From NCBI RefSeq assembly GCF_900090295.1, contig NZ_LT607753.1:124001-188000 (forward strand): a stretch of 64,000 bases of DNA, in the 5' to 3' direction. A program made the translations under genes and the position numbers. The notes below the pieces were generated by a model. The model was not told where the DNA came from. It was given only the letters and a program-made list of their open reading frames with translations, and did no database searches. Positions 20,454 to 32,277 of this stretch are shown in pieces (position 1 is the first letter of the stretch; each line of letters begins with the position of its first letter). This DNA comes from Micromonospora coxensis (GTDB lineage Bacteria; Actinomycetota; Actinomycetes; Mycobacteriales; Micromonosporaceae).

Positions 20454-20657
20454 GTGGGAACCGACGCGCCGCGCACCGCCGCCCGACCGGTCGTGGCCCG
20501 GGCCACCGCCGGGCGTGCCGGCGCGCCCGCGTCCGGCACCGGCCACGGCATCGACCTGCCCGGCCGGTCCGACACCCGCAACGAGGACCCCGCCGGCCGC
20601 ACCACGGCTCGCGGGCAGCGGCTCACCACCACCCCGACGGAGCTCATCGCGCCATGA
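20454..20657 (+). CDS. Possible leaderless small ORF coupled to acyl-CoA dehydrogenase
   Basis: A 67-codon frame begins at a GTG 6 nt after the TAAGCT box, and its stop overlaps the acyl-CoA dehydrogenase ATG by four bases (ATGA). The acyl-CoA dehydrogenase itself has only a distant GGAG (about 14 nt), so coupling would explain its translation. The product is basic, proline/threonine/arginine-rich and resembles no known family; it could equally be a 5' untranslated region. Confidence is low that the peptide has a function. Confidence 0.35.
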   Translation: MGTDAPRTAARPVVARATAGRAGAPASGTGHGIDLPGRSDTRNEDPAGRTTARGQRLTTTPTELIAP

Positions 20658-21796
20658 CTGTCGACCGGATCCTCCCCACCGACGAGGCCCACGACCTGCT
20701 GGACCTCGCCACCGAACTCGCCGATCGCGAGCTGGCCCCGAAGGCGGCCGGCTTCGAGGAGCGTGCCGAGTTCCCCCGCGAGGTGCTGCGCACCCTCGGC
20801 CGGGCCGGCCTGCTCGGCCTGCCGTACGCCGAGGAGCACGGCGGCGCCGCCCAGCCGTACGAGGTCTACCTGCAGGTGCTGGAGATCCTGGCCAGCCGCT
20901 GGCTCGCCGTGGCCGAGGCGGTCAGCGTGCACACCCTGTCCTGCTACCCGGTGGCGCAGTTCGGCACCGACGCCCAGCGCAAGCTGCTGCCCGAGATGAT
21001 CGGCGGCGAGCTGCTCGGCGCGTACTGCCTCTCCGAGCCGCAGGGCGGCTCGGACGCCGCGTCGCTGAGCACGAAGGCCGTCCGCGACGGCGACTCCTAC
21101 GTGGTCAGCGGCACCAAGGCGTGGATCACCCACGCCCGGGTCGCCGACTTCTACAACATCTTCTGCCGTACCGGCGGGCCCGGCCCGAAGGGCATCTCCT
21201 GCCTGCTCGCCGACCGCGCCACCCCCGGCATCCACCCGCAGGCCGCCGAGCGCACCATGGGCCTGCACGCCTCCCCGGTGGCGCAGATCGCCTTCGACGA
21301 CGCCCGGGTGCCGGCCGACCGGTTGATCGGCGGTGAGGGGATGGGCTTCACCATCGCCATGTCGGCGCTGGACTCCGGCCGCCTCGGCATCGCCGCCTGC
21401 GCGGTCGGGCTGGCCCAAGCGGCGCTGGACTACGCCGTCGGCTACGCCAGGGAGCGGCAGCAGTTCGGTCGTCCGATCATCGACTTCCAGGGTCTCGGCT
21501 TCAACCTCGCCGACCACGCCACCGCGATCTCCGCGGCCCGCGCGTTGATGCTCTCCGCGGCCCGGCTGCGCGACGCCGGGCGGCCGTACTCGATCGAGGC
21601 GGCCAAGGCGAAGCTCTTCGCCACCGACATGGCGATGCGGGTGACCACCGACGCGGTGCAGGTGCTCGGCGGCGCCGGCTACGTCGCCGACCACCCGGTC
21701 GAGCGGTACATGCGGGAGGCGAAGGTGCTCCAGATCGTCGAGGGCACCAACCAGATCCAGCGCCTGGTCATCTCCCGCGCGCTGGCCAAGGGCTAA
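20654..21796 (+). CDS. Acyl-CoA dehydrogenase
   Basis: An FAD-dependent enzyme of 380 residues that oxidises acyl-CoA to trans-2-enoyl-CoA. The N-terminal helical domain, the middle CLSEPQGGSDAAS flavin-contact segment, YVVSGTKAWITHA and the C-terminal IVEGTNQIQR are all present. The catalytic base is probably E363 in that last motif, the position used by short-chain and glutaryl-type enzymes. Chain-length specificity cannot be read. It may share a transcript with the small upstream frame. Confidence 0.93.
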   Translation: MTVDRILPTDEAHDLLDLATELADRELAPKAAGFEERAEFPREVLRTLGRAGLLGLPYAEEHGGAAQPYEVYLQVLEILASRWLAVAEAVSVHTLSCYPVAQFGTDAQRKLLPEMIGGELLGAYCLSEPQGGSDAASLSTKAVRDGDSYVVSGTKAWITHARVADFYNIFCRTGGPGPKGISCLLADRATPGIHPQAAERTMGLHASPVAQIAFDDARVPADRLIGGEGMGFTIAMSALDSGRLGIAACAVGLAQAALDYAVGYARERQQFGRPIIDFQGLGFNLADHATAISAARALMLSAARLRDAGRPYSIEAAKAKLFATDMAMRVTTDAVQVLGGAGYVADHPVERYMREAKVLQIVEGTNQIQRLVISRALAKG

Positions 21797-21805: not shown

Positions 21806-22027
21806 ATGGCCTTTGAACGGATCACCGTCGACCCCGAGGTGATGGGCGGCGCGCCCTGCGTGCGGCAGTCCCGGGTCCCGGTCGCCACCATCCTGGCGAT
21901 GATGGCCGACGGCATGTCCGTCACCGACATCCTCACCGATCTGCCCTTCCTCGACGAGGAGGACATGACGCAGGTGCTGCACTTCGCGGCGGACGCGGTG
22001 CGCGACCGGACGGCACGCGCAGCGTGA
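21806..22027 (+). CDS. DUF433 domain protein (antitoxin VapB45-like)
   Basis: A protein of 73 residues with the full DUF433 pattern: RITVDPEVMGGAPCVRQSRVPVATILAMMADGMS followed by ILTDLPFLDEEDMTQVLHFAA. DUF433 proteins are small winged-helix-like antitoxins usually followed by a DUF5615 PIN-like toxin. No toxin follows here; the next gene is an Lrp regulator, so this is an orphan. ATG 21806 has a leaderless-type box 6 nt upstream. Confidence 0.88.
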   Translation: MAFERITVDPEVMGGAPCVRQSRVPVATILAMMADGMSVTDILTDLPFLDEEDMTQVLHFAADAVRDRTARAA

Positions 22028-22067
22028 CCGTCGGCGGGGGAGTCCACCACGCAAGCGTGGCACCGGG

Positions 22068-22073
22068 TAGGTT
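22068..22073 (+). promoter_or_regulatory. Minus-10 box TAGGTT of lrp-type gene
   Basis: TAGGTT ends 7 nt before GTG 22081. It decides this start over a GTG at 22024 that overlaps the DUF433 stop. Confidence 0.5.
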
Positions 22074-22080
22074 GCACGCC

Positions 22081-22560
22081 GTGGAGGAGATCGACCGGGC
22101 CATCGTCGCCGCGCTGACCGCTGACGGCCGGCTGTCGTACACCGATCTGGCCGAGAAGGTGGGGCTGTCGGTGTCCGCGGTGCACCAGCGGGTCCGTCGG
22201 CTGGAGCAGCGCGGGGTGATCCACGGGTACGCCGCCAAGGTCTCCTTCGAGGCGCTGGACCTGCCGCTGACCGCGTTCGTGGCGATCCGCCCGTTCGACC
22301 CCTCCCAGCCGGACGACGCCCCCGAGCGGTTGGCCCACCTGCCCGAGATCGACTCCTGCTACTCGGTGGCGGGGGAGGACTTCTACCTGCTGCTGGTGCG
22401 GGTGGCCGGCCCGGCGGACCTGGAGCGGGTGCTGCAGGAGATCCGTACGGCGGCGAACGTCACCACCCGCACCACGGTGGTGCTCTCCACCCCGTACGAG
22501 GCGCGCCCGCCGAAGATCCCGCTGGGGGAGTCGGCCCGGCGTCCCCGCGACGGTGGCTGA
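22081..22560 (+). CDS. Lrp/AsnC-family transcriptional regulator
   Basis: A protein of 159 residues. The N-terminal AsnC helix-turn-helix (DRAIVAALTADGRLSYTDLAEKVGLSVSAVHQRVRRLEQRG, described by position 4-43) is followed by an RAM/AsnC ligand-binding ferredoxin-like domain (YSVAGEDFYLLLVRV). The family binds amino acids and controls amino-acid metabolism. No obvious target is adjacent. GTG 22081 is preferred because a leaderless minus-10 lies 7 nt upstream and the extra 19 codons to 22024 have no coding character. Confidence 0.9.
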   Translation: MEEIDRAIVAALTADGRLSYTDLAEKVGLSVSAVHQRVRRLEQRGVIHGYAAKVSFEALDLPLTAFVAIRPFDPSQPDDAPERLAHLPEIDSCYSVAGEDFYLLLVRVAGPADLERVLQEIRTAANVTTRTTVVLSTPYEARPPKIPLGESARRPRDGG

Positions 22561-24029: not shown

Positions 24030-25436
24030 TCAGTCGTTACGGTGGGCCGCCCACCAGGACTGGCCGGACTCGGGCAGGGTGTCGATCGGGTCGTAGTAGG
24101 CGTAGCGCTTGTTCAGCGCCTCCAGGTCGGCCGACTCGATGGAGGTGCGGTAGTTCTTGGTCCAGTACGAGATGCCGCGCTCGCGGTCGTACTCGGTGAG
24201 CATGTGCACCCAGCGCTTGCCGACGAACGGGACGTCGCAGACGATCCGTGGGGTGGCGTAGCCGGGCAGGTAGCCCATGATGTCGTGCTGGAGCTGCTGG
24301 GCGTGCCAGACCGGCACCCGCCAGTGCTCGGCGTTGGGGATCATGTCGCACATGTAGAAGTAGTACGGCAGGATGCCCGCCTCGCCCTGCAGCGCGAAGC
24401 AGAGGTCGAGCAGGTCCGGGGCGGTGGCGTTGACGCCGCGCATGAGCACGCCCTGGTTGCGCACGTCGCGTACGCCGACGTCGAGGGCGGTCTGGGCGGC
24501 CTTGGCGACCAGTGGGGTGATCGACTGGGCGTGGTTGACGTGGGTGTGGATGGCGAGGTTGACGCCGCGGCGGGCGGCGGTGCGGGCGACCCGCTCCAGG
24601 CCCTCGACGACGTCGGGCTGCAGCCAGTGCTGCGGCAGACCCATGAGCGCCTTGGTGGCGAGCCGGATGTCGCGGATGGTCTCGATCTCCAGCAGCCGCA
24701 TCAGGTACGACTCGAGGTTCTTCCACGGCACGTTGGCCACGTCGCCGCCGGAGACGACGACGTCGCGGACGCCGGGGTGGGCCTTGAGGTAGGCGATGTG
24801 GGCGTCGTAGCGGTCGACGGGCTTGAGGGTGAGCTTGAGCTTGTCGACGGCGGGGGTGGAGTTGCCGACCAGGTCCATGCGGGTGCAGTGGCCGCAGTAC
24901 TGCGGGCAGGTGGAGAGCAGTTCGGCGAGGACCTTGGTGGGGTAGCGGTGGGTGAGGCCTTCGGCGACCCACATGTCGTGTTCGTGCAGGCTGTCGCGGC
25001 TGGCGTACGGGTGTGACGGCCAGTCGGTGCGCCGGTCGGAGGCGACGGGGATCATGTAGCGCCGGACCGGGTCGGCGAGGAACGCCTCGGTGCTCATCGG
25101 GGCGAACGGGACCATGGTGTTGAGCATCTGCGGCGGCACCAGCATGGACATGGTGGCCAGGGCCTTCTGGTCGGCCTCGAGGTCGGCGTAAAAGCTCTCG
25201 TCGACGAGGTCGCCGAGCACGGTGCGCAGCTGCGTGAGGTTCTTGACGCAGTTGACGCGCTGCCACTGCGCGTTCTCCCACTGCTCGCGGGTGACGTGGC
25301 GCCAGCCGGGGAAGCGGGTCCAGTCGGGTTCGACCAGGGGGCTGCGGCGGTATTCGTACGGCTGCCCGGCGGTCGGCGCCGCGACCGGGGCGTGACGGGG
25401 TTGAGGGATGGTCTCAACCGGTTGGGTCTGGGTCAC
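24030..25436 (-). CDS. kamA: Lysine 2,3-aminomutase (KamA-family radical SAM protein)
   Basis: A protein of 468 residues converting L-lysine to L-beta-lysine with SAM, a 4Fe-4S cluster and PLP. The radical-SAM CxxxCxxC motif is CPQYCGHC (C177, C181, C184). Clostridial KamA carries its PLP lysine in a GGGGKTP loop; the aligned segment here is VPFVGKRW, so the lysine is kept but the glycine loop is replaced. This marks a divergent actinobacterial subgroup, so the exact substrate is inferred from the neighbouring kamD, kamE and kdd. GTG 25436 follows GAGGAGG at 4 nt. It is divergent from kdd across 143 bp. Confidence 0.88.
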   Translation of the reverse strand: MTQTQPVETIPQPRHAPVAAPTAGQPYEYRRSPLVEPDWTRFPGWRHVTREQWENAQWQRVNCVKNLTQLRTVLGDLVDESFYADLEADQKALATMSMLVPPQMLNTMVPFAPMSTEAFLADPVRRYMIPVASDRRTDWPSHPYASRDSLHEHDMWVAEGLTHRYPTKVLAELLSTCPQYCGHCTRMDLVGNSTPAVDKLKLTLKPVDRYDAHIAYLKAHPGVRDVVVSGGDVANVPWKNLESYLMRLLEIETIRDIRLATKALMGLPQHWLQPDVVEGLERVARTAARRGVNLAIHTHVNHAQSITPLVAKAAQTALDVGVRDVRNQGVLMRGVNATAPDLLDLCFALQGEAGILPYYFYMCDMIPNAEHWRVPVWHAQQLQHDIMGYLPGYATPRIVCDVPFVGKRWVHMLTEYDRERGISYWTKNYRTSIESADLEALNKRYAYYDPIDTLPESGQSWWAAHRND

Positions 25437-25484
25437 GGCCCCTCCTCGGTGCGTGGTGCAGATGATCAGCGGCCCGTAGGCTAC

Positions 25485-25527
25485 TGGAAAATATCCGGTG
25501 AAGAAATTAGTCTGCCGGAAGTTTTCC
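25485..25527. promoter_or_regulatory. Nested dyad and overlapping promoters between kamA and kdd
   Basis: GGAAAA (25486-25491) and TTTTCC (25522-25527) enclose CCGG (25495-25498) and CCGG (25515-25518), all sharing one centre. For kdd, TGGAAA (25485-25490), a 17-bp spacer and TAGTCT (25508-25513) form a promoter. For kamA, TATTTT on the minus strand lies in the left arm. This is the only A+T-rich patch nearby, and a single regulator could control both directions. Confidence 0.6.
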
Positions 25528-25579
25528 CGCGACGCGAGTCCTGGCCAGGGCTTCGAGCGGCTGGACAGGGGAGGTCGGC

Positions 25580-26641
25580 GTGACGTCACCGGTGGGTCTG
25601 CACCGCGTTGTGGAACCGGCGGGGGTGCTGCCGCAGGCGGCGTGGCGGTTGGACGCCGACCCGCGGATCGCGCCGAACGAGGTGCGCATCCGGGTCGAGC
25701 GGTTGAACCTGGACGCGGCGAGTTTCCGGCAGTTGTCGGAGAAGCACGGCGGTGACGGGGAGAAGGTGCGCGCCGAGGTTCTCGACATCGTCGCCACCCG
25801 GGGCAAGATGCAGAACCCGGTGACCGGTTCGGGCGGCATGCTGATCGGCACGGTGGAGGAGGTCGGCCGGCGTTCCCCGCTGGAGCTGAAGGTCGGTGAC
25901 CGGGTGGCGACGCTGGTGTCGCTGACGTTGACCCCGCTGACGATCCTCGACGGGCTGGCCCGCTGGGACGGGCGCAGCGAGCAGGTGCCGTGCGACGGGT
26001 ACGCGATCCTGTTCGCCCGATCCATCGCGGCGGTGCTGCCGACGGATCTGCACCCGGAGTTGTCGCTGGCGGTGCTGGACGTGTGCGGGGCGCCGGCGTT
26101 GACCGCGCGGGTGGTGGCCGAGCACGTGGCGCGGCGGCAGCGGGCGGGGGACGCGACGCCGGTGACGGTGGCGGTGATCGGTGGGGCCGGCAAGAGCGGG
26201 TCGCTGTCGTTGGCGGCGGCGCGGCGGGCGGGCGCGGGTCGTAGCGTCGGGGTGGTGCCGGTGGAGGCGGAGCGGGAGGCGCTGCTCGCGGCCGGGTTGG
26301 CGGACGTGGTGGCGTTGGCCGACGCGCGGGATCCGGTGGCGTTGTCGACGGCGGTGACGTCGGCGTTGGGGGTGCCGGCGGACGTGACGGTGGTCTGCGT
26401 GGACGTGCCGGGGTGTGAGCACGGTGCGGTGCTGGCCACGGCGGACGGCGGTACGGTGATCTTCTTCTCGATGGCGACGAGTTTCGCGGCGGCGGCGTTG
26501 GGCGCGGAGGGCCTGGCGGCGGACGTGACGATGCTGGTGGGTAACGGGTACGTGCCGGGGCACGCCGAGGTGGCGTTGGGTCTGCTGCGGTCCGAGGCGG
26601 GGGTCCGTGCGCTCTTCGAGGCCCGGTTGGCGGCAGACTGA
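25580..26641 (+). CDS. kdd: L-erythro-3,5-diaminohexanoate dehydrogenase
   Basis: A protein of 353 residues that oxidatively deaminates 3,5-diaminohexanoate to 5-amino-3-oxohexanoate in lysine degradation. The N-terminal half carries GTVEEVGRRS and GDRVATLVSLTLTPL typical of Kdd; a Rossmann element VAVIGGAGKSGSLSL follows mid-protein. The context (kamA, kamD, kamE, kal) supports the assignment. GTG 25580 follows GGGGAGG at 5 nt. Codons are strongly G-ending (GCG, GTG, TTG), unlike flanking genes that favour C-ending codons. Confidence 0.9.
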   Translation: MTSPVGLHRVVEPAGVLPQAAWRLDADPRIAPNEVRIRVERLNLDAASFRQLSEKHGGDGEKVRAEVLDIVATRGKMQNPVTGSGGMLIGTVEEVGRRSPLELKVGDRVATLVSLTLTPLTILDGLARWDGRSEQVPCDGYAILFARSIAAVLPTDLHPELSLAVLDVCGAPALTARVVAEHVARRQRAGDATPVTVAVIGGAGKSGSLSLAAARRAGAGRSVGVVPVEAEREALLAAGLADVVALADARDPVALSTAVTSALGVPADVTVVCVDVPGCEHGAVLATADGGTVIFFSMATSFAAAALGAEGLAADVTMLVGNGYVPGHAEVALGLLRSEAGVRALFEARLAAD

Positions 26642-26646
26642 GTGCC

Positions 26647-28212
26647 ATGACGAACCCCTCGACGTTGTATCGCGGCGCAGTGCTGCACTGTCCGGCGGAG
26701 CCGAGCGCGACGGCGCTGTTGGTGCGTGACGGTCGGATCGCCTGGTTGGGTGCCGACGCGGACGCTCCGGTGGCGGACCGGGTGGTGGAGTTGGACGGGG
26801 CGTTGGTGACGCCGGCGTTCGTGGACGCGCACGTGCACGCCACGGATACCGGTCTGGCCCTGTCGGGGCTGGATCTGTCGTCGGTGCGGTCGGCCGGTGA
26901 GCTGTTGGACGCGGTGTCGGTGTTCGCGGCGGGTCTGCCGTCGGACGCGGTGGTGCTGGGGCACGGCTGGGACGAGTCGGGGTGGGTGGTCGGGCGGTTG
27001 CCGGATGCCGACGAGGTGGGTCGGGCGGCCGGTGGGCGTCGGGTGTACCTGTCGCAGGCGTCGATCCATTCGGCGTTGGTGTCGCGGGCGCTGCTGGCGG
27101 CGTGTCCGGACGTGGCGGGTGCGGCCGGTTTCGATGCGTCTGGGTGGTTGCGGCGGGACGCGCACCATGTGGTGCGGGCGGCGGCGTTCGCGTCGGTGAC
27201 CCGTGCGCAGCGGGTGGCGGCGCAGCGGCGGGCGTTGGAGCACGCGGCGTCGTTGGGGATCGCGGCGGTGCACGAGTGCGGTGGGCCGGAGATCTCCGAC
27301 GAGGAGGATTTCACCGGGTTGCTGGGCATCTCGGGGGCCGGGGTGCCGGAGGTGTACGGGTACTGGGGTGAGTTGCTGGGTGCGGCGCGGGCGCGGGAGC
27401 TGGGGGCGGTCGGCGCCGGCGGGGATCTGTTCGCCGACGGGGCGTTGGGGTCGCGCACGGCGCACGTGTCGGCGGCGTACCTGGACGGGGAGCCGGGGGC
27501 GTGCGGGCACGGGTACGTGAGCGCGGAGCAGGTGCGCGACCATCTGTTGGACTGTGCGGCGCACGGGGTGCAGGGCGGTTTCCACGCGATCGGTGACGCG
27601 GCGATCTCGACGGTGTTGGACGGGTTCGGGCAGGCGGCGGAGAAGCTGGGTGTGGACCGGCTGCGGGCGGCCCGGCACCGGGTCGAGCACGCGGAGATCA
27701 TGAGCAAGCGGTTGATCGCCGGGTTCGTGGAGTACGGCATCGTGGCGTCGATGCAGCCGGCGTTCGACCGGTTGTGGGGTGGCGCGGGTCGGATGTACGA
27801 GTCGCGGCTGGGGTTGGACCGGTCGTTGGAGTCCAATCCGATGGGGGCGATGCACTCGGTCGGGGTGGCGTTGGCGTTCGGGTCGGACTCGCCGGTGACG
27901 CCGCTGGATCCGTGGGGGTCGGTGCGGGCGGCGGCGGCGCACCACAACCCGGCGCAGCGGATGAGTGTGCGGGCGGCGTTCGCCGCGCACACCCGCGGCG
28001 GGTGGCGGGCGGTGCACCTGGACAACGAGGGTGTGTTGGCGTTGGGGGCGCCGGCGACGTTCGCGGTGTGGTCGACGCCGGCGGGGGTGGAGCGGGGTCT
28101 GCCGGTGCTGGTGGCGGAGGATCCGGAGCTGCGGGGCGCGGACGATCCGACGCCGCTGCCGGTGTGCCGGGCCACGGTGCTGCGCGGTGACGTGATCTAT
28201 CAGGAGCGGTGA
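26647..28212 (+). CDS. Metal-dependent amidohydrolase (YtcJ/amidohydrolase_3 type)
   Basis: A protein of 521 residues of the amidohydrolase superfamily. Metal ligands are visible as HVH in FVDAHVHATD, H in HAIGDAA, H in HRVEHAE and D in FGSDSPVTP. The family hydrolyses amide or imine C-N bonds, often in small cyclic or acylated substrates. It sits between kdd and kamD, 5 bp after kdd, where a lysine-fermentation operon would be expected to hold the cleavage enzyme Kce. A role on a cyclised or acylated pathway intermediate is possible but unproven. No signal peptide, so cytoplasmic. Strong G-ending codon bias, as in kdd. Confidence 0.85.
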   Translation: MTNPSTLYRGAVLHCPAEPSATALLVRDGRIAWLGADADAPVADRVVELDGALVTPAFVDAHVHATDTGLALSGLDLSSVRSAGELLDAVSVFAAGLPSDAVVLGHGWDESGWVVGRLPDADEVGRAAGGRRVYLSQASIHSALVSRALLAACPDVAGAAGFDASGWLRRDAHHVVRAAAFASVTRAQRVAAQRRALEHAASLGIAAVHECGGPEISDEEDFTGLLGISGAGVPEVYGYWGELLGAARARELGAVGAGGDLFADGALGSRTAHVSAAYLDGEPGACGHGYVSAEQVRDHLLDCAAHGVQGGFHAIGDAAISTVLDGFGQAAEKLGVDRLRAARHRVEHAEIMSKRLIAGFVEYGIVASMQPAFDRLWGGAGRMYESRLGLDRSLESNPMGAMHSVGVALAFGSDSPVTPLDPWGSVRAAAAHHNPAQRMSVRAAFAAHTRGGWRAVHLDNEGVLALGAPATFAVWSTPAGVERGLPVLVAEDPELRGADDPTPLPVCRATVLRGDVIYQER

Positions 28213-28236
28213 CGTGGGCTATCAGGAAGGGCGTTC

Positions 28237-29799
28237 GTGACAGGCAAGCTTGGGCTGGATCCGGCGCTGGTGGCGCGGGCGCGGGAGTTGGCGCGTCGCG
28301 CCGGGCAGCCGGTGGTGGATCTGGCGCGCAGCCACACCACCGTGTCGGTGGAGCGGGCGGTGCTGCGGCTGGCCGGGGTGACCGGCGCTGACCCGGACGG
28401 CATTCCGTGGGTGAACCGTCTGGTGGATGCGGTGGTGGCGGACGTGGGCCTGGGGCACGGGGTGGCGGCGCCGGTGTTCGACGCTCTGGCCCGTGAGCAG
28501 ATCGGCGATGTGACGCTGTTGGCGCAGAAGGCCGCCGCCGGGTCGGTGCGGTTCGGGCAGCCGTCGGGGAAGGCGGCCACTGCTGCCCGCCGGGCGGCCC
28601 GGCGGGCGGTCGGGGCGGGGGTGCGGCAGATCGACCGGCGTCGCGTCGAACGGGACCGGCTGGTCAGGCGGTTCGGGGATCCGAAGCAGCGGCCGTGGAT
28701 CTACCTGATCGTGGCCACCGGCGACATCTACGAGGACATTCCGCAGGCGCAGGCGGCGGCGCGGGCGGGGGCGGACGTGATCGCGGTGATCCGTTCGACG
28801 GGGCAGTCGCTGCTGGACTACGTGCCGGAGGGGGCGACCCGGGAGGGTTTCGCCGGCACGTACGCGACGCAGGAGAACTTCCGGCTGATGCGGGCGGCGT
28901 TGGACGAGTCGTCGAAGGAGCTGGGCCGGTACGTGCGGCTGACGAACTACGCGTCGGGGTTGTGCATGCCGGAGATGGCCACGCTGGCGGGTCTGGAGCG
29001 TCTGGACATGATGCTCAACGACTCGATGTACGGGATCCTGTTCCGTGACATCAATCCGATCCGTACGTTCGTCGACCAGCGGTTCTCCCGGCAGGTGCAC
29101 GCGCGCGCCGGGATCATCATCAACACCGGTGAGGACAATTACCTGACCACCGCGGATGCGGTGGACGAGGCGCACACGGTGACGGTGTCGCAGCTGCTCA
29201 ACGAGTACTTCGCGCACGAGGCCGGGTTGGCCGACTGGCAGTTGGGGCTGGGGCACGCGTTCGAGATCAACCCGGATCTGCCGGAGTCGTTGCGGTTGGA
29301 GTTGGCGCACGCGTTGTTGGCCCGGGAGTTGTTCCCCGACGCGCCGTTGAAGTGGATGCCGCCGACGAAGCACATGACCGGTGACGTGTTCCGGGGCAAT
29401 CTGCTCGACGGGTTCTTCAACCTGGTCGGCGCGATGACGGGGCAGGGCATCCTGCTGGTCGGCATGATGACCGAGGCGGTGGTGACGCCGTGGTTGTCGG
29501 ACCGGGACATCGCCCTGCAGAACGTGCGCTACGTGCTGGGCGCCGCCGGTGGCCTGCACGAGGACTTCGTGCCCGCGCCGGGCGGGTTCATCCAGCAGCG
29601 CGCGCACCGGGTTCTCGGCGAGGCGGTGGAGCTGTTGGAGCGCATCGGTGAGCAGTCGCTGCTGACCGCGATCGCCGAGGGCACCTTCGGGATCATGAAG
29701 CGGCCCGCGGACCGGGGCAAGGGTCTCGACGGTGTCGCCCGGCACGAGGCCGACTACTTCAACCCGGCCACCGAGATCCTGGAAGGGGAGCGCGCGTGA
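28237..29799 (+). CDS. kamD: Lysine 5,6-aminomutase alpha subunit
   Basis: A protein of 520 residues, the usual KamD length. It forms the TIM-barrel body of the adenosylcobalamin- and PLP-dependent enzyme that moves the terminal amino group of beta-lysine from C6 to C5, giving 3,5-diaminohexanoate. Conserved segments include IYLIVATGDIYEDIPQAQAAARAGADVI, GTYATQENFRLMR and RFSRQVHARAGIIINTGEDNY (described by order). GTG 28237 follows AGGAAGG. Its stop overlaps the kamE start (GTGA), so the two subunits are translationally coupled. Confidence 0.95.
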   Translation: MTGKLGLDPALVARARELARRAGQPVVDLARSHTTVSVERAVLRLAGVTGADPDGIPWVNRLVDAVVADVGLGHGVAAPVFDALAREQIGDVTLLAQKAAAGSVRFGQPSGKAATAARRAARRAVGAGVRQIDRRRVERDRLVRRFGDPKQRPWIYLIVATGDIYEDIPQAQAAARAGADVIAVIRSTGQSLLDYVPEGATREGFAGTYATQENFRLMRAALDESSKELGRYVRLTNYASGLCMPEMATLAGLERLDMMLNDSMYGILFRDINPIRTFVDQRFSRQVHARAGIIINTGEDNYLTTADAVDEAHTVTVSQLLNEYFAHEAGLADWQLGLGHAFEINPDLPESLRLELAHALLARELFPDAPLKWMPPTKHMTGDVFRGNLLDGFFNLVGAMTGQGILLVGMMTEAVVTPWLSDRDIALQNVRYVLGAAGGLHEDFVPAPGGFIQQRAHRVLGEAVELLERIGEQSLLTAIAEGTFGIMKRPADRGKGLDGVARHEADYFNPATEILEGERA

Positions 29800-30557
29800 G
29801 CGCGGCGGCGGAGAAGAAGATCGTCCGGCCGTACGGGGACACCACGGGTGACGGCATGGTGCAGGTGTCGTTCACGTTGCCGGTGCCGCACGACAAGCGG
29901 GCCGAGGGCGCGGCGGTCCAGCTCGCCAACAAGATGGGCATCGACCCGGCGATGCTGGTGCACGCCACGCAGATGGGCGACGGGTTCACCTTCTTCGTGG
30001 TGTACGGGCGGGTGAACCATCTGGTGGACCTGTCGGCGGTGCAGGTGGTGGAGCGTGACTTCCCGCTGCTGTCGGCCAAGGAGGTCAACGCGGTGGTGAA
30101 GCAGAAGCTGCGGCGCAAGTTGTCGGTGGTGGGGGCGTGCATCGGCACGGACGCGCACACCGTGGGCATCGACGCGATCCTCAACGTCAAGGGCATCGCG
30201 GGGGAGAAGGGCCTGGAGTACTACCGGGAGTTGAAGGTGACCAACCTCGGCGCGCAGGTGAGTGTGCCGGAGTTGGTGGAGGCGGCCCGGCAGGAGAAGG
30301 CCGACGCGGTGCTCGTCTCGCAGGTCGTCACGCAGCGCGACGCGCACCTGCACAACACCCGGGAGATGTCCGCGGCGTTCCGGGAGGCGATGCCGGCGGG
30401 GAAGCGGCCGCTGCTGATCGTCGGGGGTCCCCGCTTCGACGAGACGATGACCGGGGAGTTGGGTGTGGACCGGATCTTCGGTCGCGGCACCACCCCCGGT
30501 GAGGTCGCCTCGTACCTGGTGCACGCGTTGGTCACGAACAAGAAGGCGAGAGCATGA
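29796..30557 (+). CDS. kamE: Lysine 5,6-aminomutase beta subunit
   Basis: The cobalamin-binding subunit of 253 residues. DAHTVG (D119-H121) is the base-off DxHxxG cobalamin motif, with H121 the lower cobalt ligand. K132 follows 11 residues later, the same spacing as His133 and Lys144 of the clostridial enzyme, so K132 is the probable PLP-anchoring lysine. The C-terminal Rossmann-like cobalamin domain is complete. It overlaps kamD by GTGA and kal by ATGA. Adenosylcobalamin must be made or imported elsewhere; no B12 riboswitch is visible in this cluster. Confidence 0.95.
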   Translation: MSAAAEKKIVRPYGDTTGDGMVQVSFTLPVPHDKRAEGAAVQLANKMGIDPAMLVHATQMGDGFTFFVVYGRVNHLVDLSAVQVVERDFPLLSAKEVNAVVKQKLRRKLSVVGACIGTDAHTVGIDAILNVKGIAGEKGLEYYRELKVTNLGAQVSVPELVEAARQEKADAVLVSQVVTQRDAHLHNTREMSAAFREAMPAGKRPLLIVGGPRFDETMTGELGVDRIFGRGTTPGEVASYLVHALVTNKKARA

Positions 30558-30946
30558 GTGATTCCCGGGTCGGGTTGACCGTCACCCACCGCCGGTACGT
30601 GCCGTACTCCCACGCCCACTACGCGGGGAACCTGGTCGACGGGGCGTACGCGGTGGGCCTGTTCGGGGATGTCGCGACCGAGGTGTGCATCCGTACCGAC
30701 GGCGACGAGGGGTTGTTCGCCTCCTACTCCGACGTGCAGTTCAGGGCGCCGATGAAGGCCGGTGACGTGTTGGAGGTCGTCGCCACCGTCACCCGTGTCG
30801 GTACCCGTAGCCGCACCATCGACTTCGAGGCCCGGGTGGTGTGCCGGGGCCGGCCCGACAAGGGCGAGTCGGCGGCGGAGGTCCTCGCCGTGCCGATCGT
30901 GGCGGTCACCGCGACCGGCACGGTGGTCGTGCCCGCGGCGGCGTGA
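30554..30946 (+). CDS. kal: 3-aminobutyryl-CoA ammonia-lyase-like hotdog protein
   Basis: A hotdog-fold protein of 130 residues (VTHRRYVPYSHAHYAGNLVDGA; SYSDVQFRAPMKAGDVLEV by position 10-31 and 57-75). The length and motifs match Kal, which removes ammonia from L-3-aminobutyryl-CoA to give crotonyl-CoA. Its substrate normally comes from Kce, which is not encoded nearby. It overlaps the genes on both sides by four bases, so the whole kamD-to-mutL stretch is a tightly coupled operon. Confidence 0.85.
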   Translation: MSDSRVGLTVTHRRYVPYSHAHYAGNLVDGAYAVGLFGDVATEVCIRTDGDEGLFASYSDVQFRAPMKAGDVLEVVATVTRVGTRSRTIDFEARVVCRGRPDKGESAAEVLAVPIVAVTATGTVVVPAAA

Positions 30947-32277
30947 ACATCGCCGTCTGCGCCGACGTCGGGTCGACGTACACGAAGGCGGCGGTGGTGG
31001 ACCTCGTCGGCGGCCGTCTGGTCGCTGCGGCGTCCGCGCCGACCACGGTGGGCACCGATGTGCTGCACGGCCTGGACGCCGCCGTCGGTGCGGCCTGCGC
31101 CGGGCTCGGCGTGGGTGACGTGCCGTGGTACGTGTGCTCGTCGGCCGGCGGTGGTCTGCGTCTCGCGGTCGTCGGCTACGAGCCGCTGGTGACCGCGCAG
31201 GCCGGCCGGCGGGTCGGGCTGTCCGCCGGGGCGAACGTGGTGCACGTGGCGGCCGGGCGGCTCGGCGGCGCCGAGCTGACCGTGTTGCGCGCCGCCCGTC
31301 CCGACGTGGTGCTGCTGGTGGGCGGCACCGACGGCGGCGACGCGGAGGTGTTGACGCACAACGCCACCCGGCTGGCGAGGGCGCGCTGGCGGGTGCCGGT
31401 GGTGCTGGCCGGCAACGCCGACGCCCGCGACGACCTGTACGCCCTCCTGTCGGCGGCGAAGGTGCCGGTCACCGCCGCCGACAACGTGCTGCCCCGTATC
31501 GGGGTGCTGGCGCCCGCGTCGGCCCGCGCGGCGATCCGGGAGGTGTTCCTGCGCCACGTCATCGGCGGTAAGAAGTTGTCGCGTGGTGGCCGGTTCGCCC
31601 GGCTGGTGCGGGCGGCGACGCCGGACGCGGTGCTGACCGGGGTGGAGGCGCTCGCCGACGCCGTCGGTGGTGATCTGGTGGTGCTGGACGTCGGTGGTGC
31701 GACGACCGACGTGTATTCGGTGCTGACCCCGGACGAGCGGGACAGCGGCCCGGGTCGGGAGGTGGCCGGGACGCTGTGGCGGGCGCGCACCGTGGAGGGG
31801 GACCTGGGGATGCGGTGGAGCGCGCCCGGGGTGGTGCGGGCGGCGGCGGAGGAGCGGCTGCTGGCGGCGGGGGAGCAGGACGTGCTGGCGGCGCAGGCGG
31901 CGGTGCGGGCGGCGGATCCGGGGTTCCTGCCGGGTGACGACGCGGGCCGGGCGGTCGACGCGCGGATCGCCGCGCTGGCGGCGACGGTGGCGTTGCGGCG
32001 GCACGCGCGGGGCGCGGCGACCGGGGAACGGGCGGGGCGGGACCTGCGTGACGTGCGGCTGGTGGTCGGCTCCGGTGGGGTGTTGCGGCATGCGCCGTCG
32101 GCCGACGCGGCCGGGGTCCTCGCGGCGGTGCTCGCCGACCATGCCGGTGGGTGGCCGGTGCCGCGCGCGGCCCGGGCCGTGGTGGACACCGACTACGTGT
32201 TGGCCGCGGCGGGGCTGCTGGCCGCCGAGCATCCGGGTGCGGCGCGGGCGTTGCTGGGCCGGCATCTGGGGGCGTGA
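30943..32277 (+). CDS. MutL/GlmL-like ATPase (putative aminomutase reactivase)
   Basis: A protein of 444 residues of the glutamate mutase MutL/GlmL family with an ASKHA actin-like fold. The phosphate loops are CADVGSTYTKAAVVD at the N-terminus and VVLDVGGATTDVYSV in the second half; LVGGTDGGDAEVL is also typical. Such proteins are thought to protect or reactivate cobalamin-dependent mutases. In clostridial lysine operons that task falls to KamB-KamC, absent here, so this protein probably replaces them. GTG 30943 overlaps the kal stop (GTGA). Confidence 0.85.
   Translation: MNIAVCADVGSTYTKAAVVDLVGGRLVAAASAPTTVGTDVLHGLDAAVGAACAGLGVGDVPWYVCSSAGGGLRLAVVGYEPLVTAQAGRRVGLSAGANVVHVAAGRLGGAELTVLRAARPDVVLLVGGTDGGDAEVLTHNATRLARARWRVPVVLAGNADARDDLYALLSAAKVPVTAADNVLPRIGVLAPASARAAIREVFLRHVIGGKKLSRGGRFARLVRAATPDAVLTGVEALADAVGGDLVVLDVGGATTDVYSVLTPDERDSGPGREVAGTLWRARTVEGDLGMRWSAPGVVRAAAEERLLAAGEQDVLAAQAAVRAADPGFLPGDDAGRAVDARIAALAATVALRRHARGAATGERAGRDLRDVRLVVGSGGVLRHAPSADAAGVLAAVLADHAGGWPVPRAARAVVDTDYVLAAAGLLAAEHPGAARALLGRHLGA

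Follow-up and report, generated by a model that had tools for sequence, protein, structure and literature searches.

Lysine fermentation through 3,5-diaminohexanoate is described from Clostridium sticklandii and Fusobacterium nucleatum, where it involves KamA, KamDE, Kdd, Kce, Kal, AtoDA and Bcd. Here, we analyze a locus of this type in Micromonospora coxensis, located in a stretch of 64,000 nucleotides (hereafter the window, C1:124001-188000, GC content 74.8%) of a single-contig genome of 6.77 Mb that is 99.99% complete; coordinates lacking a contig prefix refer to the window. The classical route passes coenzyme A (CoA) from butyryl-CoA to acetoacetate through AtoDA (PMC3149608). A 2009 paper assigned rare B12 proteins, the lysine 5,6-aminomutase among them, to 2 to 26 organisms (PMC2667541), and kal and kat were reported from archaea without the key pathway enzymes (PMC8397731). 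Among the matches listed in our literature search, judged by title and the start of the abstract and with most subscription papers outside the search, no paper addressed the lysine 3,5-diaminohexanoate pathway in actinobacteria. Annotations of the single genes probably exist, since the NCBI models would name Kdd, KamD, KamE and Kal.

Compared with the route of C. sticklandii and F. nucleatum, the Micromonospora locus shares KamDE, Kdd and Kal at equivalog level together with a co-occurring Kce homolog, but differs in that kce is unlinked, the CoA-transferase family PF01144 is not found, an acetoacetyl-CoA synthetase (AacS) is present, KamA belongs to a divergent clade and the host is a high-GC actinobacterium, in which butyrate is an unlikely end product. 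A pathway variant is likewise described for 'Candidatus Cloacamonas acidaminovorans', which shares Kdd and Kce with the classical pathway but carries the aminotransferase gene kat instead of kal and uses AtoDA (PMC3149608), whereas our locus contains kal and PF01144 has no match in the genome. Our comparisons make it probable that most of a 3,5-diaminohexanoate (lysine-fermentation-type) pathway is encoded at this locus, and that this pathway is complete although its genes are dispersed over the genome; it would represent a known pathway in an actinobacterial variant. Our analysis adds the unlinked kce, a shared upstream motif, a predicted ending through AacS and evidence that the in-cluster amidohydrolase probably lies outside the pathway. 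Micromonospora thereby gains a predicted route from lysine to crotonyl-CoA in which the apparent gap of the cluster is explained, a BKACE gene receives a probable function, and a route mostly reported from anaerobes would rank as a core trait of a family noted for its antibiotic producers.

The kam cluster

Of the seven genes that a preliminary description, made from the letters alone, had named kamA, kdd, amidohydrolase, kamD, kamE, kal and mutL-like, family models confirmed six and placed kamA in the KamA-like group, under the curated cut-offs. The kamA gene (24030..25436, minus strand, 468 aa, GTG start) is transcribed divergently, 143 bases from a run of plus-strand genes that overlap or are separated by short gaps. 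This run comprises kdd, encoding L-erythro-3,5-diaminohexanoate dehydrogenase (25580..26641; NF052381, 273 bits, cut-off 200), the gene of an Amidohydro_3 protein (26647..28212; PF07969), kamD and kamE for the alpha (28237..29799; NF052384, 693 bits, cut-off 600; 543 bits to structure 8t0v) and beta (29796..30557; NF052385, 355 bits, cut-off 280; 219 bits to structure 9q1a) subunits of lysine 5,6-aminomutase, kal (30554..30946; NF052388, 193 bits, cut-off 160) and a GlmL/MutL-family ATPase gene (30943..32277, 444 aa). Kdd, KamD, KamE and Kal thus all exceed their curated NCBIfam cut-offs. The alignment places both H121 and K132 in KamE, in agreement with the residue pair noted earlier for the 5,6-aminomutase; we take His121 to be the B12 ligand and Lys132 to be the pyridoxal phosphate (PLP) residue. 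The GlmL/MutL-family protein passes TIGR01319 (245 bits, cut-off 204) and matches PF13941 with 460 bits, although the narrower equivalog NF040745 is not reached (327 bits, cut-off 475); it is a candidate reactivator that probably serves KamDE.

An unlinked candidate for Kce

The preliminary description had pointed out that Kal is present while Kce, whose product it uses, is not, and had left two options: a Kce encoded elsewhere, or a different route. For the window this observation stands: Kal passes its model and the Kce family PF05853 has no copy there. Genome-wide, the same family yields two copies elsewhere. One of these, at C1:2988909-2989736 on the minus strand (L003:8910-9737), is very likely the missing Kce, so that the first option is favored. 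Four lines of evidence connect this unlinked BKACE gene with the cluster: co-occurrence, an in-cluster position in three genera, the residues of its active site and a motif in promoter regions. The KCE model tops its four NCBIfam matches with 273 bits, under the curated cut-off of 382, and its best solved match is Kce 2y7d (203 bits), to which 110 of 266 aligned residues (41%) are identical. When 23 BKACE proteins are aligned, the candidate retains nine of the ten compared residues (E14, H46, H48, S82, G84, E143, R226, E230 and D231), T106 being replaced by Ser; the numbering and active-site roles of these residues are those we presume for Kce. Position 14 is Glu in the candidate, in three in-cluster copies and in the aligned copies of G009, G261, G284, G338, G233, G231, G280, G409 and G269, and differs in the kamD-negative genomes G033 (Val), G164 (Pro) and G030 (Gly). 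The second BKACE of the M. coxensis genome (C1:5162138-5162839) was ruled out as Kce by its Gly14 and its 56 bits to the KCE model.

The distribution of the genes was surveyed in three overlapping samples, comprising 200 genomes of the family (f1, taken as Micromonosporaceae), 246 of the class and 396 of the phylum. All 190 kamD-positive family genomes conserve a kce ortholog (E of 4.5e-114 or better), two genomes have kce and no kamD, and eight have neither (Fisher p=8e-13, uncorrected for kinship; the eight double negatives include three genomes of genus g34, where kamD and kce occur together in four other species, and two of genus g33). Six of the kamD-negative genomes (G030, G059, G063, G093, G105 and G121) gave no kce match at 1e-10, G033 and G164 gave only a distant BKACE paralog (E 1.3e-42 and 4.5e-48), and the two that are kce-positive (G002 and G113) are drafts of 810 and 440 contigs. 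Outside the family, a BKACE was found in 12 of the 13 kamD-positive genomes searched, the exception (G589) being 65% complete. In one genome each of genera g11, g13 and g14 (L066, L068 and L069), a kce that is 64-72% identical to the M. coxensis copy lies directly behind kamA. The neighbors of kce in M. coxensis itself are a YgfZ-type gene, recognized by NCBIfam, and a gene without NCBIfam match that appears asparaginase-like by eye. Separately, TAGGAT was seen by eye 6 to 8 bases 5' of the kce start in 15 of 27 genomes (L178-L185, L208-L227), which fits the -10 box of a leaderless transcript.

An operator-like motif shared by kam genes and kce

A GGAA-TTCC palindrome was first noticed by eye in the upstream regions of kce and between kamA and kdd. 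The latter region of the window harbors two plus-strand sites: GGAAAATATCC (25486..25496), present as a single copy in the window and lying within a block that is conserved among the aligned kamA-kdd intergenics, and GGAAGTTTTCC (25517..25527), whose GGAANNNTTCC occurs once in the window. Both were sources of a position weight matrix (PWM) built from kamA-kdd intergenics alone (39 distinct sites from 102 regions; consensus TGGAAAATTTCCGGC). This matrix exceeded 12 bits within the 160 bases preceding kce in 10 of 27 genomes, and in 8 of 11 within the genus, compared with 6 of 1107 control upstreams of 13 other kam-locus genes, with the qualification that the threshold was chosen after the scores were seen and that at 9 bits 9 of 79 rbpA upstreams pass too. 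The matrix replaced a literal GGAAN(3-4)TTCC search, dropped as too strict, which gave exact hits in 18 of the 102 kam intergenics (0.36 expected from shuffles) and 7 of the 27 kce upstreams. The shared motif points to co-regulation of kce with the kam genes in some members of the family; since 17 of the 27 genomes lack it upstream of kce, we read it as a lineage-limited sign. Upstream of acd and lrp in this genome the PWM found no site.

The regulator might perhaps be the neighboring Lrp/AsnC-family protein (22024..22560, plus strand; PF13404/PF01037), acting on both the kam genes and kce. An Lrp gene also lies near kamA in other families and in another class, but the link between Lrp and the kam genes can only be inferred, because Lrp is retained where most kam genes are lost. 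A small DUF433-like open reading frame (ORF), recognized by eye at 21806-22027 between an acyl-CoA dehydrogenase gene and the Lrp gene, was matched in 2 of 40 regions (L058 and L095).

The amidohydrolase is probably a bystander

The amidohydrolase gene, listed as a member of the cluster in the preliminary description, separates kdd from kamD in 27 of the 31 family regions. Its distribution nevertheless indicates that it is probably a bystander outside the pathway. A search of 48 genomes recovered it also from the kamD-negative G093, G105 and G121 (71% identical), G030 (65%) and G164 (64%), and in pieces from G033 and G002. G093, G105, G121 and G164 retain Lrp, kamA and the amidohydrolase at the locus, which then runs on into lnt, ppm, fxsA and rbpA, and have lost kdd, kamDE, kal and the GlmL gene. 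The amidohydrolase of G011 and G013 also adjoins lnt-ppm-rbpA, with the kam genes and kce located elsewhere. Across the class sample, the amidohydrolase (E<=1e-60) was detected in 121 genomes, 31 of them kamD-positive, that is, it is present in 90 of 190 kamD-negative and missing from 25 of 56 kamD-positive genomes, without association (p=0.36), a count in which the cut-off scores G338 as negative despite a weaker in-cluster match (5.7e-33) and in which most genomes had only six candidates scored. It is present in all 19 f2 genomes of this sample, which are kamD-negative, and in 21 f4 genomes.

These data bear directly on the other option left by the preliminary description, namely that the route differs, Kce being unused and the amidohydrolase cleaving or preparing the Kdd product. 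The conserved slot speaks for such a role, and it recurs outside the class, where a 33-36% identical protein lies between kdd and kamD in five of five f9 regions; in L087 (f22), a 25-26% identical amidohydrolase adjoins kal, and the clusters L066, L068 and L069 contain kce and lack the amidohydrolase. The f9 and L087 arrangements may reflect an old link between the amidohydrolase and the pathway. However, the lack of association with kamD, the persistence of the gene after loss of kdd, kamDE, kal, mutL and kce, and the Kce homolog in every kamD-positive family genome leave this alternative very unlikely indeed. A pathway function such as hydrolysis of a lactam of the Kdd product was considered unlikely on the same grounds. 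In L094, phosphotransacetylase-like and phosphoketolase-like genes were seen by eye between the amidohydrolase and kdd.

A divergent KamA clade

KamA scores under the curated cut-offs of its models (TIGR03820, 155 bits vs 525; TIGR00238, 174 vs 199) and is 27% identical to the canonical-type KamA of L087. Its sole match among solved structures is the L-lysine 2,3-aminomutase 2a5h, presumably from Clostridium subterminale, with which it shares CxxxCxxC and the equivalents of R134, D293 and D330, which we assume to have the same roles as in that enzyme. It differs in reaching just 139 bits, in being 52 residues longer than the 416-residue chain and in a PLP-lysine motif that is off by one. The clade as a whole retains the cysteine motif and these equivalents, C177, C181, C184, R186, D364, D401 and K407 being present in 45 of 45 aligned sequences. 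The PLP-lysine motif DAPGGGGK has become D-x-P-x-x-x-K-R in the same 45 sequences, which is why K407 aligns one position early; K407 is likely the PLP lysine.

Within the class sample, the clade (E<=1e-60) occurs in 61 genomes and is strongly associated with kamD (both in 53 genomes, kamA alone in 8, kamD alone in 3, neither in 182; p=2.5e-41). In one of the eight kamA-only genomes (G651), a contig end cuts the locus beside kdd. Five f7 genomes (G646, G695, G716, G757 and G792; L320, L321, L322, L324 and L325) harbor kamA without kam neighbors in 18 kb, with lrp within the stretch, and G640 likewise lacks kam neighbors of kamA within 18 kb. The retention of kamA and lrp without kdd, kamDE and kal suggests a second role for beta-lysine. 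In a f4 genome (G392; L319:2676-17156), a 75% identical kamA lies inside an apparent biosynthetic gene cluster that also encodes a type I polyketide synthase of 2149 aa, a carrier protein, a flavin amine oxidase and two AMP-ligases; the starter unit of this polyketide cluster may be beta-lysine or a related compound.

The isolated kamA genes of the four family genomes and of f7, together with the f4 arrangement, would also fit a locus whose main product is beta-lysine or diaminohexanoate, destined for a specialized metabolite or osmolyte, the other genes being accessory. A specialized-metabolite role had been raised in the preliminary description, but in the ORF list, inspected by eye and with no cluster finder run, no biosynthetic genes were recognized beside the locus, and the known reactions of Kdd, Kce and Kal run to degradation, these genes being lost together in the kamD-negative genomes read. 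We regard this explanation as improbable.

Predicted pathway and its ending

AtoDA had been reported missing from the locus, and PF01144 has no match in the whole genome either; the same search was positive in 6 of 14 control genomes and covered this one CoA-transferase family. Instead, an AacS is encoded at C1:4480836-4482788 (TIGR01217, 831 bits, cut-off 521). Because of these two observations a butyrate-forming ending is unlikely, and oxidative catabolism with an ATP-paid ending appears more likely than butyrate fermentation. A genuine butyrate-forming fermentation under low oxygen, employing a CoA-transferase other than AtoDA, could draw on the candidates present for all steps to crotonyl-CoA and on the acyl-CoA dehydrogenase gene near the cluster (20654-21796). 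The latter is, however, retained in the kamD-negative G093, G105, G121 and G164, which unties it from the module and leaves its membership unsupported; with PF01144 lacking and AacS present, we give this fermentation little chance.

The observed gene families, conservation, co-occurrence and motif lead us to predict the following activities, flux, oxygen conditions, regulation and end products. KamA would convert L-lysine to L-beta-lysine, from which KamDE, with B12 and PLP, would form 3,5-diaminohexanoate by moving the second amino group; Kdd would oxidize this to 3-keto-5-aminohexanoate. Kce would convert the latter, with acetyl-CoA, to acetoacetate and 3-aminobutyryl-CoA. Kal would then remove ammonia to yield crotonyl-CoA, and acetoacetate would be activated by AacS, not AtoDA, the products entering acetyl-CoA and respiration or serving as C4 building blocks rather than ending as butyrate. 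In this form the pathway probably serves ordinary lysine breakdown in air. This raises the question of how two radical aminomutases, one of them radical-SAM, operate in air-grown organisms. A wider picture, which we hold tentatively and consider possible rather than probable, is that of an aerobic, family-wide version of the clostridial-type pathway, in which an oxygen-tolerant, divergent KamA clade and a B12 aminomutase work in respiratory lysine catabolism of filamentous actinobacteria, AacS replaces the butyrate-forming transferase, and KamA, through a separate use of beta-lysine, outlives the pathway and has been borrowed into polyketide clusters.

Several observations weigh against a complete dispersed pathway, beginning with the KCE score under its cut-off and the choice of the PWM threshold. 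The single aligned BKACE copy of each of four kamD-positive genomes outside the family (G386, G200, G313 and G245) has Ala14, their other copies not being in the alignment, as does the second BKACE copy of G231. Among the eight double negatives, G063 and G059 are incomplete genomes (77% and 82% complete). The motif was not found upstream of kce in the 17 genomes mentioned, 3 of 11 in the genus, nor upstream of aacS in M. coxensis, and the tie of AacS to the pathway is one that we infer. The activity and substrate of KamA are uncertain because of its distance from the canonical clade and its shifted PLP-lysine motif, and kamA and lrp outlast the loss of the remaining pathway genes. Finally, the Ala14 copies and the amidohydrolase positions in f9 and L087 slightly lowered our confidence in the dispersed pathway and slightly raised that in the amidohydrolase route.

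Distribution and gene order

The preliminary description had considered that a lysine route of this type would be unusual in a probably aerobic filamentous bacterium. The gene set itself, in a filamentous actinobacterium, is borne out, but it is not unusual for this strain, given kamD in 190 of 200 family genomes (189 above the cut-off) and in 56 of 246 class genomes (53 above); in the phylum sample, kamD was found in 21 of 396 genomes (15 above). The best 80 named KamD relatives are mostly from Micromonospora and almost all from Micromonosporaceae, with one Kribbella. The survey of gene order in relatives that had been proposed revealed kamA|kdd-amidohydrolase-kamD-kamE-kal-mutL, in some cases with insertions, in 27 of the 31 family regions, each of 20 kb, and the full order in 69 of the 80 named loci, 6 of the other 11 sitting on pieces no longer than about 10 kb. 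A similar order also occurs in other families and in another class, the GlmL/MutL gene not being detected in nine regions outside the family (L087-L094 and L097). One genome with two kamD matches (G048) carries, at L065, a divergent kamD-kamE pair that is 44-45% identical and has no other kam genes of this type in 20 kb.

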